DNA of 42,715 nucleotides from an uncultured Alphaproteobacteria bacterium (GTDB lineage Bacteria; Pseudomonadota; Alphaproteobacteria; RF32; CAG-239), in NCBI GenBank assembly GCA_944391435.1, contig CALXTP010000041.1, positions 1 through 42,715 of the forward strand, given 5' to 3'. Made by a program: the position numbers and the translations under genes. The notes below the pieces were generated by a model that saw only the letters and a list, made by a program, of their open reading frames with translations, had not been told where the DNA came from and searched no databases. Shown here one piece after another: positions 10,553 to 16,653 of this stretch. Each line of letters starts with the position of its first letter. Within the stretch, counting starts at the first letter, position 1.

Positions 10553-11290
10553 TTATTCCCGTTTGCTTTTTATATTGTTGCCCATATATGACAGGTCGTA
10601 AGTCGTGATGGTCAAGCCAAACGGGTTTATCAAACCCAAATCTTTGTCATTGGCAAATTTGGTAAAATCAAAACTCATCCGCATGGTGGCTATCCAATAG
10701 CTGATAACAGGTTTCTCCTTTTCGGGGCTTTCTTCGGTGATGGTAAAGCGAACCTGCCAAAAATCAAAAGATACCGGATATATCATGGTTGTTTCAACTT
10801 TTCTTCTGATGCCTTTTTTTTGCAACATTTCAAAATACGGATATTCCGTATTCTTAAAATCCATATATACCCCGTCCGACGATGTCAGCTGGACGTATTG
10901 CTTATCGCCCAGACGATATTGCATTTCCTGCAAATCATCGCCGATTGTATAACGTTTGACAATATATTCGTTTAAAAGGCTTTCTGTAACCAAATCTCCG
11001 GCAAAAGCCTCGCTCTGCGCCGCCTCCATGTGCGTTACCTGATAACGGTCGTAATCTATCTGCAGCGGCATAATTTTTGTTTTTTTGAGCGGAATAAGAA
11101 TACACAGCAAGCTGCCCAAAATCATACTCGTACACAGGCTCAAACAGGAAATTACAACCAAAAAACGCGACGTCCACAAAAAACGACGTTCAGGAAACGC
11201 CCTGACATTTACTTTTTCCGGATAGTATCCCAATTCGTCTTTGGGCGCTTTTTCCTTGTATTTAAACAGCGTATAAAAAAGATTAAACAT
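10553..11290 (-). CDS. VirB8-like type IV secretion inner-membrane protein (isolated)
   Basis: A 245-residue protein with a cytoplasmic N-terminus of about 45 residues, one membrane helix (FLVVISCLSLCTSMILGSLL) and a periplasmic domain. The domain starts IPLKKTKIMPLQIDYD and ends INPFGLTITTYDLSY, closely matching the start (PLK...V.VD) and end (NP.G..V..Y) of VirB8/TrbF NTF2-like domains. VirB8 proteins nucleate the inner-membrane part of type IV secretion systems. The start at 11290 has GGGAG about 10 bases upstream; in-frame codons further up would add an unlikely extension. No other virB gene is visible, so the partners must be elsewhere or the protein has another role. Confidence 0.7.
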   Translation of the reverse strand: MFNLFYTLFKYKEKAPKDELGYYPEKVNVRAFPERRFLWTSRFLVVISCLSLCTSMILGSLLCILIPLKKTKIMPLQIDYDRYQVTHMEAAQSEAFAGDLVTESLLNEYIVKRYTIGDDLQEMQYRLGDKQYVQLTSSDGVYMDFKNTEYPYFEMLQKKGIRRKVETTMIYPVSFDFWQVRFTITEESPEKEKPVISYWIATMRMSFDFTKFANDKDLGLINPFGLTITTYDLSYMGNNIKSKRE

Positions 11291-11427
11291 TGTTTGATTT
11301 TCTCCCTGCCTTTTTTCGCTTACAGCATATTTTACATTAAAGTTGTATAAAATCAAATAAAATACTACCAATTAAAAAATATTTAGTGTAGATGTTTATT
11401 AAATGATATTATTTGAGGGAAAGCCTG

Positions 11428-13287
11428 ATGAAAAAGATTATTTGTATTTTAGGAGGTATTGCAGGCGTGCTGACAGCCTGTTCAACTACTACGCAACAAG
11501 AAGTTCCCGTTGTTGAAGCTCCGGTTATGTCCGCTTATTATTCCGACTGGGACAGGGCTGTACGGGCGGATGTTGACCTGCAGAATATGTATGTCGGAAC
11601 GCCATCACAGATATCGCGCCCCATAGATATGTATATGGCTATGGCTTTAGCCCTGAAATATAACTATACACGCCGTCTGGCCAGCTATCAGGAAAGCCTT
11701 ATCAAGGGCAATATAAATCCGGCTTCCTTGCCGACCATGGCCGAAAATCTGGGATATGATAATTCCACAAACTCACGTGCGACTCCGGCTGACCTGAAGT
11801 TGTCATGGAATTTGCTTGATCTTTCCTCTTTGTATTATCAAAACAGTTTTGCCTCGCAAGAAATTGCTGCACAAGAGCAAAGCCGCAAAGTGGTTAACAA
11901 CATTTTGCAGGAAGCGCGTTCGCTTTATTGGAAAGCTTTGGCTGCGCAACGCCTTATTCCGGTTATTGACGACATGAATGAATATCTTATCCGGGTTGTT
12001 GATGAACTTAACGCCCGTTCAAACGAGATGCTCAAAGAAGGCAAAACCCCTTCTACGAATCTGCTGTTGAAAAAAAGAAAATATCTTGAAAGCGTACGAG
12101 AATTAGCTGCTTTAAAAAAAGAGCTTGATACGGCACAAGCTGAATTTGCCGGTTTTCTGGGGTTTTATCCCTCTACCGAAATAAAGCTGGCCGGCTCAGA
12201 ATACGGAAATTTTGCCATTCCCTCCATGCGTGCCAAAATTCAGCAACTGGAGTGGCTGGCGTTAACGAATCGCCCCGAGCTCCGGGCTTTTGATAATATG
12301 ACGGATAAATCCGAGCTGGAATTAGTAATTAAAGATTTTGAAAATGTGGATAACAGCGATTACCGCCAAGATCCAAACTATTATAACCGCAAGTGGGCAA
12401 AAGAATCCAATGATTTGGCCATGACAGTGTTTGAAGATATCCGCTATTCCGGTACAGGCACTTATAATTCTTTGGCAAGGCAACGTATGACCAATATTAT
12501 CCTGAACCAGGTCTATCTGTCTTGGGCTATGTATCAATCTGCCGTGGAAGATTATCTGCTTAATATGAGTGTCGCCACAACGTCGGAGGATATTGCCGAG
12601 GACATAACGGATAAAGAAGGGAGCAATAAGGCCGTCAGCCACTTAGAATCGGCAAAAGCCATTATTGATGAGGCGCGGGCTTTCCTTTCTTATATTGATG
12701 TGCAGGAGGCTATCGGACAACTGTATGCCAGTATAGGCATGGATGCCATTCCGGCAGATATGCTGGCTGATTCACCTTCTGTTCTGGCCGTTCAAATCAA
12801 AAAGACTCTGGATAAATGGCAAGACGGCATTTTTGTCGTGTCGCTGCAAGGAGCCAGTACGACTTTGACTTCTCGCAAACCGCCGGTTGACGTGTCTTCC
12901 AGCAAATTGGTGCCTAATGTGGTTGTCAGCACGGATTCAGATGTCAACGTTACAATTCCGGCAGAAGCTTTCAGTTCTATTGCCTGGAACGGAGATTATT
13001 CCACATCTGCCGGCTCTTTAGATGATTCAGGGCTGCCTGCATGGCTTAAATATGATGAAAAGTCGCGTACTTTTACCGGACACCCGTCACAGGACGACGA
13101 AGGTACATATAAAATTAAAGTTTATGCCACGGACAAGACCGGTAATTCTGCGGTTTTGGGTTTTACCATCACGGTTGAAAACCTCTATATCCAGACAATG
13201 GAATATAAAGGCCTGACCGGCTATAGAAGGGCTAAAGTATATCATAAATGTACACCGGGTGCACCTTGTGCCAAAGATGATATTTAG
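11428..13287 (+). CDS. TolC-like outer-membrane lipoprotein with C-terminal Ig-like domain
   Basis: The 619-residue protein has a lipobox (LTAC, Cys18). Residues from about 50 to 450 look like an outer-membrane efflux protein: long amphipathic helices, a WNLLDLSSLYYQ strand in place of the usual WxLFD motif, and LALTNRPELRAF, a common TolC-family signature. Residues from about 495 to 585 form an Ig-like, putative He_PIG/cadherin-like domain (PAWLKYDEKSRTFTGHPS, then GTYKIKVYATDKTGNSAV). A short tail has two cysteines (CTPGAPC). TolC proteins form channels across the outer membrane for exporters; an appended Ig-like domain is not usual. A GAGGGA site fixes the ATG at 11428. The downstream glycosyltransferase-like gene starts 11 bases later. 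Confidence 0.72.
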   Translation: MKKIICILGGIAGVLTACSTTTQQEVPVVEAPVMSAYYSDWDRAVRADVDLQNMYVGTPSQISRPIDMYMAMALALKYNYTRRLASYQESLIKGNINPASLPTMAENLGYDNSTNSRATPADLKLSWNLLDLSSLYYQNSFASQEIAAQEQSRKVVNNILQEARSLYWKALAAQRLIPVIDDMNEYLIRVVDELNARSNEMLKEGKTPSTNLLLKKRKYLESVRELAALKKELDTAQAEFAGFLGFYPSTEIKLAGSEYGNFAIPSMRAKIQQLEWLALTNRPELRAFDNMTDKSELELVIKDFENVDNSDYRQDPNYYNRKWAKESNDLAMTVFEDIRYSGTGTYNSLARQRMTNIILNQVYLSWAMYQSAVEDYLLNMSVATTSEDIAEDITDKEGSNKAVSHLESAKAIIDEARAFLSYIDVQEAIGQLYASIGMDAIPADMLADSPSVLAVQIKKTLDKWQDGIFVVSLQGASTTLTSRKPPVDVSSSKLVPNVVVSTDSDVNVTIPAEAFSSIAWNGDYSTSAGSLDDSGLPAWLKYDEKSRTFTGHPSQDDEGTYKIKVYATDKTGNSAVLGFTITVENLYIQTMEYKGLTGYRRAKVYHKCTPGAPCAKDDI

Positions 13288-13298
13288 GAGTTTGCCGC

Positions 13299-14873
13299 GT
13301 GTTTGGTTTTGCCTTGAAATATCCGTTTCAGGCAACGGGAATATTTTGCCTGCTGTTATATGTTACGGCAGGCTTCTTTTTTAATGCTACTCCATTATCC
13401 GGCGAGGAAATATCTTATTTGCTTATTGCTGTCATGCTGCCTCTTTGCTGCAATGACTTTTATCACAAAATCACCCTTTTTATTTTTTCCCTGATTTTAT
13501 TTTTGTTTTTTCAACTCTCAGAAACGGACTGTCCTCTTTTTTTATGGGGTATGGCCTTTGCTTTGCTTATTGCTTTTACCGTACTGGAACAGAAAGACTT
13601 ATTCCACTTCTTGTTTGCTATTATCATGGCTTCTTTTTTATGCCATTTGGCTTATGTGCAGGCAACAGCAACAGATGTGCGCCAACATGATTTACAAGGT
13701 ATTTTTTTATATATGACCGAAATTACCCGCGGCGGAATTAACTGGCGCAATTTTAATCCATGGAATATGTATTATTTGTTTCACCAGCCATTGCATTTTA
13801 TTCTTTGCAGCTATTTATACCAGCTGGGGCTATTTTTATGGAATTCCTCGGCGGCCGCACGCGAATCGTTGCAGTATCTTTCCTTATTTTTGGTTACCGC
13901 AACTTCTCTTTTGGCTGTTTTGATTCTGTACCGGTTGAAGTTCCCGTCAAAATTATTGGCGGCGGGCGGCCTGCTTTTTGCCTTTCATCCGGTTTTCTTT
14001 TTATTTTCCGGTTATATTTCCGACGATGCACCTGTTATGTTTTGGAGTGTTGCGACAACGTATTTTTTGCTTTGCTGGCATGATAGCGGATTGAAAAGCC
14101 ATTTGATATGGGCAGCCGTTTGTTTCGGATTGGGAACGTTAACAAAGTTATCTATGTTGCTAATGGTTCCGGCCATTGTTTTCTTATTTGTTTATAAACT
14201 TGTTGCCTGCAAAACCGACCGTTTGCTTTTGTTTCAAGATTTGTGCTTATTTGCCATTGTTGCCATTCCATTGTCTTTGATATGGGTTATGCGCAACCAT
14301 ATTTTATACGATATGCCCTTTTACAATGTTCCGGATACGGCTCCGGCGGGACAAAATTTTAAAACGCTCGGGCTGAGCGAAAGAATTTTTGATTTTTCGC
14401 AAATATTTTCACCCTTTTTGAGTGTTCCGCAAATTGTTGATGCAAATATTTGGCTTGCTATTTTAAAAACTGAGCTATTCGGAGAATGGAATTTTGCACT
14501 GGTTAATTCCGCAATTTTTATTCCGGCCTATATATTATATATATTAAACATAGTGCTGAAGGTTTGTCTTGTTGCCGCTTTTTTGTACAGCATCATTCTT
14601 TTGTTGCGCAAAAGACTTGCCTTTTCTCCCATTGCTGCATTTTTCCTTATCCAATATCTGACTGTTTGGATTTATTGTTTTAAGTATGCGATGGATTATC
14701 CTTATGCCTGCTCAACAGATTATCGCCTATTTGCCCAAATTCTGTTACCAGAGATAATCCTGGCTTGCTGGCTATGCCGGGTGTTTCTCCCTATCAAAAA
14801 AAATTCCTTGCCGTTAATTTTTGCGGCTGCCTATGCATTGTTAACAACAACTATTTATATGAGCATTCTTTAA
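13299..14873 (+). CDS. Polytopic membrane protein, GT-C glycosyltransferase-like
   Basis: A 524-residue protein with at least ten hydrophobic segments. An early extracytoplasmic loop holds an acidic DVRQHD motif; a later loop has YISDDAPVMFW; GLGTLTKLSMLLMVP precedes a membrane helix. These resemble the loop and helix arrangement of GT-C (PMT/ArnT-like) glycosyltransferases, but the assignment is from general pattern, not a diagnostic motif. The start is GTG at 13299 with TAGGAG 9 bases upstream. It is translationally close to the TolC-like gene. It ends only 4 bases from the convergent DUF2155 gene, and no terminator hairpin is visible between them. Confidence 0.6.
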   Translation: MFGFALKYPFQATGIFCLLLYVTAGFFFNATPLSGEEISYLLIAVMLPLCCNDFYHKITLFIFSLILFLFFQLSETDCPLFLWGMAFALLIAFTVLEQKDLFHFLFAIIMASFLCHLAYVQATATDVRQHDLQGIFLYMTEITRGGINWRNFNPWNMYYLFHQPLHFILCSYLYQLGLFLWNSSAAARESLQYLSLFLVTATSLLAVLILYRLKFPSKLLAAGGLLFAFHPVFFLFSGYISDDAPVMFWSVATTYFLLCWHDSGLKSHLIWAAVCFGLGTLTKLSMLLMVPAIVFLFVYKLVACKTDRLLLFQDLCLFAIVAIPLSLIWVMRNHILYDMPFYNVPDTAPAGQNFKTLGLSERIFDFSQIFSPFLSVPQIVDANIWLAILKTELFGEWNFALVNSAIFIPAYILYILNIVLKVCLVAAFLYSIILLLRKRLAFSPIAAFFLIQYLTVWIYCFKYAMDYPYACSTDYRLFAQILLPEIILACWLCRVFLPIKKNSLPLIFAAAYALLTTTIYMSIL

Positions 14874-14877
14874 GCTA

Positions 14878-15681
14878 TCAGTTGTCCTGTTGCAGCTTTT
14901 CCATCTCGGCATCTATGGCCGCATTCCAGCCATCATCGGTTATACCGCCGTTTTGAGTACCGTCTTCAGCCTTCGGAGCATTTTTCTTTTCGCCCTGTCC
15001 GGCACCGGCTTCCTGAATTTTCATAAACTGCAACAAGTTCTGCGGCTCATCGCCTTCTTCAATATCGCTCACATAAGAAGTTGACGACTCGGATATGTAT
15101 CGGGGCATTTCTTTAATATCTTTTTCTATATCCCGGTCTTCCGTCGTAAAATCTTTGATGTGAATGATGTTTTCCTGCGGTTTGTCCAGCTCTTCTTCCT
15201 GTTCTTTAATTTCCGGCTTTGCCTTGCCCAACAACACATCTTTGCCCGGCAGATTATCCCGTGCGGCCAATTCTTCCGGAGTCAGCAGTTTTGTGCCGTC
15301 TATCTCTGCATCTACACATTCCAGCAGCCAGACATCATATATAGGGTGTTCTATGGCATTAATCCCCGGCGTAGAGGATAACAACCAGCCTCTGAAAATA
15401 TTATATTCGTCCGTACCGAAACTTTTATCCGCTACATCCACAAAGGCAAAATTCTCCGGCGTTTCTTCTGCCGGGCGCTTTTTACACGCCCGCAAGACCA
15501 GAGAAAAATCTCCGAAGGTAATTTTGGAGTTAACTGGAACGGTTATTTTATTAACCCGCCCCGTTACTTTGTCCATTGCCTGCATTAAAGCCGCATTTGT
15601 CGCAATTTCCGCTGCATTTGCGGCAGAAGCCAGACACAGCGCTATGCTGCCGGCTATCAGCCATTTATTCCTTTTGGTCAT
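14878..15681 (-). CDS. Secreted DUF2155-family protein
   Basis: A 267-residue protein with a clear signal peptide (cleavage after AANAAE near residue 24). The DUF2155 core follows: MDKVTGRVNKITVPVN, LRACKKRPAEETPENFAFVDV, then FRGWLLSSTPGINAIEHPIYDVWLLEC. This family is largely alphaproteobacterial and of unknown function. The C-terminal third is low-complexity, acidic and not conserved in type. It begins inside the mlaD gene (17-base overlap), so it is translated as part of the mla operon. That supports a role in outer-membrane lipid homeostasis, by association only. Confidence 0.85.
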   Translation of the reverse strand: MTKRNKWLIAGSIALCLASAANAAEIATNAALMQAMDKVTGRVNKITVPVNSKITFGDFSLVLRACKKRPAEETPENFAFVDVADKSFGTDEYNIFRGWLLSSTPGINAIEHPIYDVWLLECVDAEIDGTKLLTPEELAARDNLPGKDVLLGKAKPEIKEQEEELDKPQENIIHIKDFTTEDRDIEKDIKEMPRYISESSTSYVSDIEEGDEPQNLLQFMKIQEAGAGQGEKKNAPKAEDGTQNGGITDDGWNAAIDAEMEKLQQDN

Positions 15682-16123
15682 TTCCGGTCACCATAAAAAT
15701 AATTTCACCAACCATATCTTCCAAAGATTTCGCATCTTTTGTATTTTCAGCAACGCTTCCCGGCAATAATTTTTCTGAGGAGGTTCCCGGCTCTATTTTG
15801 ATAAATTTATCGCCCATAAGCCCATCGCCGGCCACCGAAACAACACTGTCCACAGGTAATGATATTTCCGGCATGAGACTCATCGTAACATCCACCATAT
15901 AATCATTAGGATTGATTTTTTGCGACAGTACCGTTCCGACTTTAATGCCGTTTATTCTAACATCCGCACCGACATTTAGTCCGCCGACTTTTATGAATTT
16001 GGCGTTTATTTCATATCCTTTCACAACTTGCAAATCGGAAACGTTGTACGCAAAAACCATAAACAAGGCGGCCACCGCCAAAACTACCAATCCCATTATT
16101 GTTTCAACAGGTCTTTTATTCAT
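15665..16123 (-). CDS. mlaD: MlaD, MCE-domain phospholipid transport protein
   Basis: A 152-residue protein: a short N-terminus (NKRPVETIMG), one membrane helix (LVVLAVAALFMVFAYNV) and one MCE domain (YEINAKFIKVGGLNVGADVRINGIKVGTV) ending with GDGLMGDKFIKIEPG. This is the standard MlaD layout of a single helix anchoring a hexameric lipid-binding ring to the inner membrane. It lies 11 bases after a second MlaD-like gene and overlaps the DUF2155 gene. In most bacteria mlaD is next to mlaE and mlaF; neither is in this window. Confidence 0.88.
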   Translation of the reverse strand: MNKRPVETIMGLVVLAVAALFMVFAYNVSDLQVVKGYEINAKFIKVGGLNVGADVRINGIKVGTVLSQKINPNDYMVDVTMSLMPEISLPVDSVVSVAGDGLMGDKFIKIEPGTSSEKLLPGSVAENTKDAKSLEDMVGEIIFMVTGNDQKE

Positions 16124-16134
16124 CTCAAACTCCT

Positions 16135-16653
16135 TTAATTTGCTAACATCTCATCTGCAGCATCCGTTTGCGGTGCCTGCTTTTGTTTGCTTTTTCCCAT
16201 GGATATCATCCTGTCTAAAAGTTCTTCCAAAATCATCGCGTCCTGCGTATAGCTGATTTCCCCCTCAGCGGGTATAAAATCCTCAGAACCGCCGACATCA
16301 ATTTCAACATATTTGCCGCCGACGAGCCCGAAGCTGACAATTGACGCGCTGCTATCTTCCGGAATTTTATATTCCTTGTCTATTTCCAACGTCAATTTGG
16401 TACGAAAATTATTATCCAACACGGCGGATGTTACCCTGCCGATATCCACACCGGACAGGCGTACGGCGTCCCCGACATTCAATCCGTCAGTCCGGCCAAA
16501 ACTGGCATAAACATTATAGGTCTTCCCTAAGCCTTTCCTTTCAATTGATGCGTTATGCGAAACGGTAATAAACACAGCAACCAATATCACGCATAACGAT
16601 ATTATCCCGATACGGATAGACTTAAGTTCTTCTTTGGTATATTTATCTTCCAC
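16135..16653 (-). CDS. Second MlaD-like MCE-domain protein
   Basis: The 172-residue protein has the same architecture as the neighbouring MlaD: a membrane helix (IGIISLCVILVAVFITV) then an MCE domain (YNVYASFGRTDGLNVGDAVRLSGVDIGRV) ending in FGLVGGKYVEIDVGG. It is clearly a paralogue but diverged, with a longer, polar C-terminus (KSKQKQAPQTDAADEM). As the first gene of a three-gene minus-strand unit, it could form mixed rings with MlaD or serve a separate MCE system. Which of the two is the functional MlaD is not decided by sequence alone; the downstream copy is the closer match. Confidence 0.82.
   Translation of the reverse strand: MEDKYTKEELKSIRIGIISLCVILVAVFITVSHNASIERKGLGKTYNVYASFGRTDGLNVGDAVRLSGVDIGRVTSAVLDNNFRTKLTLEIDKEYKIPEDSSASIVSFGLVGGKYVEIDVGGSEDFIPAEGEISYTQDAMILEELLDRMISMGKSKQKQAPQTDAADEMLAN

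Follow-up and report, generated by a model that had tools for sequence, protein, structure and literature searches.

A TolC-like lipoprotein with an Ig-like domain, TolC-HePIG, has a near-constant divergent neighbour of the VirB8 family, VirB8p, and this pairing suggests an undescribed envelope-spanning complex. To the specific reading that the two proteins, an outer-membrane lipoprotein derived from TolC and a VirB8 paralogue of the inner membrane, form an envelope-spanning module independent of the T4SS, we give an even chance. It builds on comparisons of sequences and genomes: the architecture of TolC-HePIG and its conservation, the pairing of the two genes and their joint absence, their dissociation from the T4SS, and a shortening of the barrel hairpins. 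The window, that is, the whole stretch of DNA analysed, comprises 42,715 nucleotides; its relevant features are listed in the table.

Table. Features of the TolC-HePIG/VirB8p locus, in coordinates of the window
Feature	Position	Strand	Basis
TolC-HePIG, TolC-like lipoprotein with Ig-like domain, 619 aa	11428..13287	+	ORF, translation, Pfam OEP and He_PIG, core gene
Signal peptide with LTAC lipobox; Cys18 lipidated	11428..11481	+	All 65 aligned sequences carry Cys18, none with Asp at +2
TolC-type helical body, residues 66-462 (OEP profile 71-245)	11623..12813	+	VIA-align Z 17 to TolC; Pfam OEP
First barrel hairpin, reduced to 40 aa (T1SS relatives: 63 aa); residues 98-137	11719..11838	+	Alignment; no strands in model
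Second barrel hairpin, 38 aa and degenerate, with 28% charged residues on family average; residues 298-335	12319..12432	+	Alignment; model
He_PIG (Ig-like) domain, residues 495-583	12910..13176	+	Pfam 51 bits; genome search; fold
Two-cysteine tail, Cys608 and Cys614	13249..13284	+	Each kept in 60/65
VirB8p, divergently encoded partner and VirB8-family paralogue, with the cytosolic motif ELGYYPEKVNVRAFPERRFLWTSR, a single membrane helix and a periplasmic NTF2-like domain	10553..11290	-	Pfam 66 bits; profile E 2.8e-9; AlphaFold/Foldseek; clade 100/99
Divergent intergenic region common to VirB8p and TolC-HePIG, 137 bp	11291..11427	.	Family gaps -21 to 173 bp, 75 loci

The preliminary description had read four parts from the letters of TolC-HePIG, an outer-membrane-efflux-like helical body, a lipobox, an Ig-like/He_PIG-type domain and a two-cysteine tail, and all four are borne out. 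On inspection of the sequence, the reading frame starts at the ATG that opens the tabulated gene, with a ribosome-binding-like GAGGGA upstream. The Pfam matches reach 29 bits for OEP (cut-off 22) and 51 bits for He_PIG (cut-off 24). The OEP match covers the first repeat only, while relatives show two; just 16 of the 65 aligned family sequences reach OEP at E 0.001, and He_PIG is recognised in 62 of them. The lipobox cysteine is followed in no sequence by Asp at +2, and the mature protein contains no cysteines other than Cys18 and the two of the tail. An AlphaFold2 model built on the 65-sequence alignment (pLDDT 74, pTM 0.59) shows long helices, an Ig-like sandwich and a last strand that precedes the cysteine pair. 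Foldseek and VIA-align searches with this model match the strongly conserved helical barrel body to TolC, OprM and CusC, across both of its halves in the VIA-align superposition, and match residues 483-587 to the Ig-like domains of dystroglycan and SraP (Z 9.3-12.1, rmsd 2.1-3.3 Å).

This architecture is not a product of chance, since it is present in 142 of the 152 genomes of the family, including 104 of the 109 that are at least 90% complete. The gene is almost always single-copy and full length where contigs allow; it is split over contigs in two genomes, and an extra weak OEP match occurs in two. The named loci belong to gut and rumen alphaproteobacteria, among them Azospirillum sp. CAG:239, and the sole genome of a sister family carries the protein at 34% identity. 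Because families f51 and f74 share the lipobox cysteine, OEP-like body, He_PIG and C-terminal cysteine, and f40 has a more degenerate form, the He_PIG fusion on a TolC body is old and vertically inherited, not a local oddity.

That no adaptor or pump gene is adjacent, as the preliminary description stated, is literally true: Pfam annotation shows no HlyD adaptor or inner-membrane component beside TolC-HePIG in the window. However, a divergent VirB8-type envelope gene adjoins it, and this conserved neighbour was overlooked together with the reduced barrel hairpins described below. Its product, VirB8p, is assigned to the VirB8 family by Pfam and by profile comparison with crystal structures of VirB8, and AlphaFold and Foldseek place a VirB8/NTF2-like domain behind one transmembrane helix. 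Judged by where its conserved N-terminus begins, the gene probably starts at 11290. In the VirB8 tree, VirB8p forms one separate clade, which is marked exactly by the cytosolic motif LG.YPE.V.V.AMPERRYL; AMPERRYL is absent from the VirB8s of T4SSs. In the R388 T4SS, the N-terminal tails of VirB8 dock on VirB4 (PMC12857230); the changed but conserved cytosolic tail of VirB8p therefore fits a changed partner.

How constant is this neighbour? A first scan found VirB8p divergent to TolC-HePIG in 75 of 80 named loci. Among the other five, it was recovered in two (L139, L172), two lie at contig edges, and one (L170), matched by position to genome G109, is an exception, with VirB8p on another contig. 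Of the 78 testable loci of CAG:239-type gut alphaproteobacteria, 77 retain the pair, and it recurs in two further families, f2 (L100, with one ORF between) and f51 (L107); in f74 and f40 both genes are present but unlinked. The pair's other neighbours vary between genera, with an anaerobic ribonucleotide reductase gene in many and a mannosyltransferase-like gene in the window's genus, and VirB8p is the only constant neighbour of TolC-HePIG across the sampled genera. As the remaining neighbourhood changes in this way, general synteny does not account for the pairing. We found no description of a VirB8-TolC pair in the literature searched. Two other features of the window deserve mention: a PMT-type glycosyltransferase gene (13299-14873, +), which lies 11 bp downstream of TolC-HePIG and of all sampled genera is retained in this one alone, and two tandem single-domain MlaD paralogues (15665-16653, -), each just below the MlaD equivalog cut-off, beside a DUF2155 gene.

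The two genes are also usually absent together. With a profile of the paired VirB8, VirB8p is missing from seven of the ten genomes without TolC-HePIG (G012, G014, G031, G058, G085, G121, G141) and present in three (G081, G082 and G094, the last at a contig edge), and it is missing from only two of the 142 genomes with TolC-HePIG (G138, G147), both on contig ends; the weaker match in G070 was scored as present. Fisher's test gives p ~1e-8 for the 152 genomes and ~1e-6 for those at least 90% complete, values that ignore relatedness and draw on few joint absences.

The barrel hairpins, normal in the relatives that serve adhesin exporters, are reduced in TolC-HePIG when it is aligned with them. 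The first lacks an extracellular loop, and the second, with 44 residues in T1SS relatives, has also lost its LLPG motif. Charged residues, on average 28% of the second hairpin in the family, account for 7-25% of it in T1SS relatives and for 14-16% in f51 and f74. The AlphaFold model contains no strands at either hairpin, at moderate confidence and with pLDDT below 50 in parts of the second. Strand S2 (DLKLSWNLL) keeps a beta-like amphipathic alternation; the contrast in hydrophobicity with relatives is modest, and the hydrophobic-moment analysis is suggestive, not decisive. Taken as one moderate model plus sequence trends, these data suggest that the outer-membrane barrel was likely lost and that the hairpins probably no longer span the membrane.

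But what if TolC-HePIG is an ordinary OMF for unlinked ABC or RND pumps, with the Ig-like domain a decoration of the equatorial belt and VirB8 incidental? E. coli TolC illustrates that a solitary OMF can serve many pumps, the genome contains several pump operons, for example MacAB with its own OEP gene, and the close match to the TolC fold would agree with such a role. We nevertheless consider it unlikely: it does not sit well with a VirB8 pairing that persists although every other neighbour changes across the family, with the usual joint absence of the two genes, or with the shortened hairpins.

The VirB8p clade is broader than TolC-HePIG. In f74, f70 and f23, VirB8p is found near map and radC; the TolC-like protein of f70 shows no recognised domain at its C-terminus, and that of f23 ends in a SPOR domain. 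Some VirB8p must function without TolC-HePIG, because it is retained alone in G081 and G082 and in f91, where TolC-HePIG was not seen in the two genomes tested. In the f91 genomes G241 and G351, VirB8p ends a tolC-macA-ABC-permease operon; as independent proof of a link to TolC, we give this macAB-tolC-virB8p arrangement little weight, since it is missing in 20 other f91 neighbourhoods, a few of them cut by contig ends. In f23 (L286, L291, L293) and f91 (L323, L327, L329), VirB8p often adjoins, or lies one gene from, a gene without family assignment whose small product (147-174 aa) resembles a lipoprotein. A purely structural tether of outer membrane, peptidoglycan and inner membrane that takes no part in transport would accommodate these small lipoproteins, the SPOR replacement, the lipid anchor and the reduced barrel, but it would have no need of the helical barrel body that is so strongly conserved, and we judge it quite unlikely.

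Where did TolC-HePIG come from? By profile and tree, its nearest relatives outside the clade are the OMFs of adhesin-type exporters, which also contain a pair of HlyD proteins and a fusion of M50 with HlyD (L114, L117, L101, L098). Pfam shows two OEP repeats in these OMFs and one in TolC-HePIG; unlike TolC-HePIG, they have linked HlyD genes, and several adjoin giant He_PIG or cadherin proteins, whose He_PIG domains are up to 42% identical to that of TolC-HePIG. Genomes such as G152, G201, G224 and G340 hold both an exporter OMF and TolC-HePIG as paralogues, and the tree splits TolC-HePIG from the T1SS paralogues of the same genomes with a support of 98/100 (row L113 of this tree, a wrongly picked adhesin ORF, was disregarded). 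The exporter loci at L114:5323-11176, L117:9348-15312 and L101:8863-15681 encode, besides the OMF and both HlyD proteins, an M50 peptidase fused to HlyD, with no ABC ATPase among the annotated adjacent genes, and may represent an unusual secretion system. In G152, a T4SS coupling protein of the VirD4/TraG type comes after the locus with TolC and M50-HlyD (L101:16800-19868).

On which side of the outer membrane does the Ig-like domain lie? In related TolC proteins, its C-terminal place is occupied by SPOR, a peptidoglycan-binding type of domain. The C-terminal tail of OMFs is part of a periplasmic equatorial belt that contacts partner proteins (PMC8277102). By analogy with these tails and with the SPOR relatives, He_PIG would sit in the periplasm, not on the surface. 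The preliminary description had allowed for either side, with altered docking or adhesion as the consequence; TolC topology and the SPOR relatives favour the periplasm, a changed docking is plausible, and a surface position with a role in adhesion finds no support. Very little probability is thus left for a surface adhesin or a device for adhesin retention, in which the TolC part would serve as an anchor and He_PIG would be exposed or hold a partner. The proximity of some T1SS relatives to giant He_PIG or cadherin proteins, and the similarity of those He_PIG domains, would suit an origin from giant He_PIG adhesin loci; TolC-HePIG, however, has a single Ig domain, and the genome search found no second He_PIG match in the window's genome.

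VirB8p, finally, is the third VirB8 of its genome; the other two VirB8 genes adjoin a VirB9-like gene, and a VirB10 gene adjoins a VirB11-like gene. VirB10 was found in 104 of the 128 family genomes (of 152) covered by the survey, and VirB8p and TolC-HePIG are unlinked to any T4SS cluster. Three genomes (G031, G085, G121) keep VirB10 and two T4SS VirB8s and lack the pair; six (G055, G087, G071, G137, G140, G110) have the pair, with neither VirB10 nor a T4SS VirB8 found. Despite the membership of VirB8p in the VirB8 family and the presence of these T4SS genes, we therefore reject the pair as an accessory of the rvh-like T4SS, to which we give scarcely any credence given this double dissociation and a cytosolic tail that differs in the very part docking on VirB4 in T4SSs (PMC12857230). 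The T4SS of this genome has peculiarities of its own: an oversized VirB9-like protein of 680 aa combines CagX with a C-terminal SPOR domain (G000:C17, L208:4978-7020), and the VirB10 of 1462 aa carries beta-flower repeats before its TrbI domain (G000:C40, L209:8599-12987).

How might an envelope-spanning module of TolC-HePIG and VirB8p be built? An OMF of the adhesin-exporting type would have given rise to TolC-HePIG, retaining the periplasmic alpha-barrel part, while its hairpins were shortened and probably ceased to span the membrane; its pore would thereby be lost. Anchored in the outer membrane, the alpha-barrel would reach towards the inner membrane and there meet VirB8p with its periplasmic NTF2-like domain, so that the two proteins would be in physical contact. 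He_PIG and the disulfide-type cysteine tail at the equatorial end would form a periplasmic docking belt. Such a module could act as an export conduit, as an envelope tether or as a platform on which an unlinked pump assembles. More tentatively, and with clear doubt, we consider that a barrel-less TolC and a VirB8 freed from the T4SS might constitute a trans-envelope machine of a new type, which combines parts of a T1SS and a T4SS but is neither, and which is near-universal in the family.

We would also like to place the pair alongside known systems. TolC-HePIG shares with TolC, OprM and CusC the fold of its body, with OprM and CusC the lipidated cysteine, and with all of them a C-terminal variation in the equatorial belt; it differs in its shortened hairpins, the second of them charged, in the lack of barrel strands in the model, in the added He_PIG domain and cysteine pair, and in having no adjacent pump or adaptor gene. 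Bucl8 of Burkholderia, an OMF with an extracellular collagen domain encoded in an efflux operon (PMC7682875), likewise combines an OMF with an added non-OMF domain, but that of TolC-HePIG is Ig-like and probably periplasmic, and there is no pump operon. With the He_PIG domains of dystroglycan and SraP it has fold and profile in common, here as a single domain on an envelope lipoprotein. VirB8p, for its part, shares fold and profile with the T4SS VirB8s TrwG and rvhB8, but belongs to a separate clade with its own AMPERRYL motif, is encoded outside the T4SS cluster and is present without a T4SS.

VirB8 is usually regarded as belonging to the T4SS, and TolC is seen as a channel for export. That a clade of VirB8s stands beside a TolC-derived lipoprotein and is kept after loss of the T4SS indicates that different systems reuse parts of envelope machines. 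Should the barrel truly be lost, TolC-HePIG would show what the helical body of TolC can do without a pore. And because nearly all members of this poorly cultured family of the human and animal gut carry the pair, it likely matters to the envelope of these bacteria.
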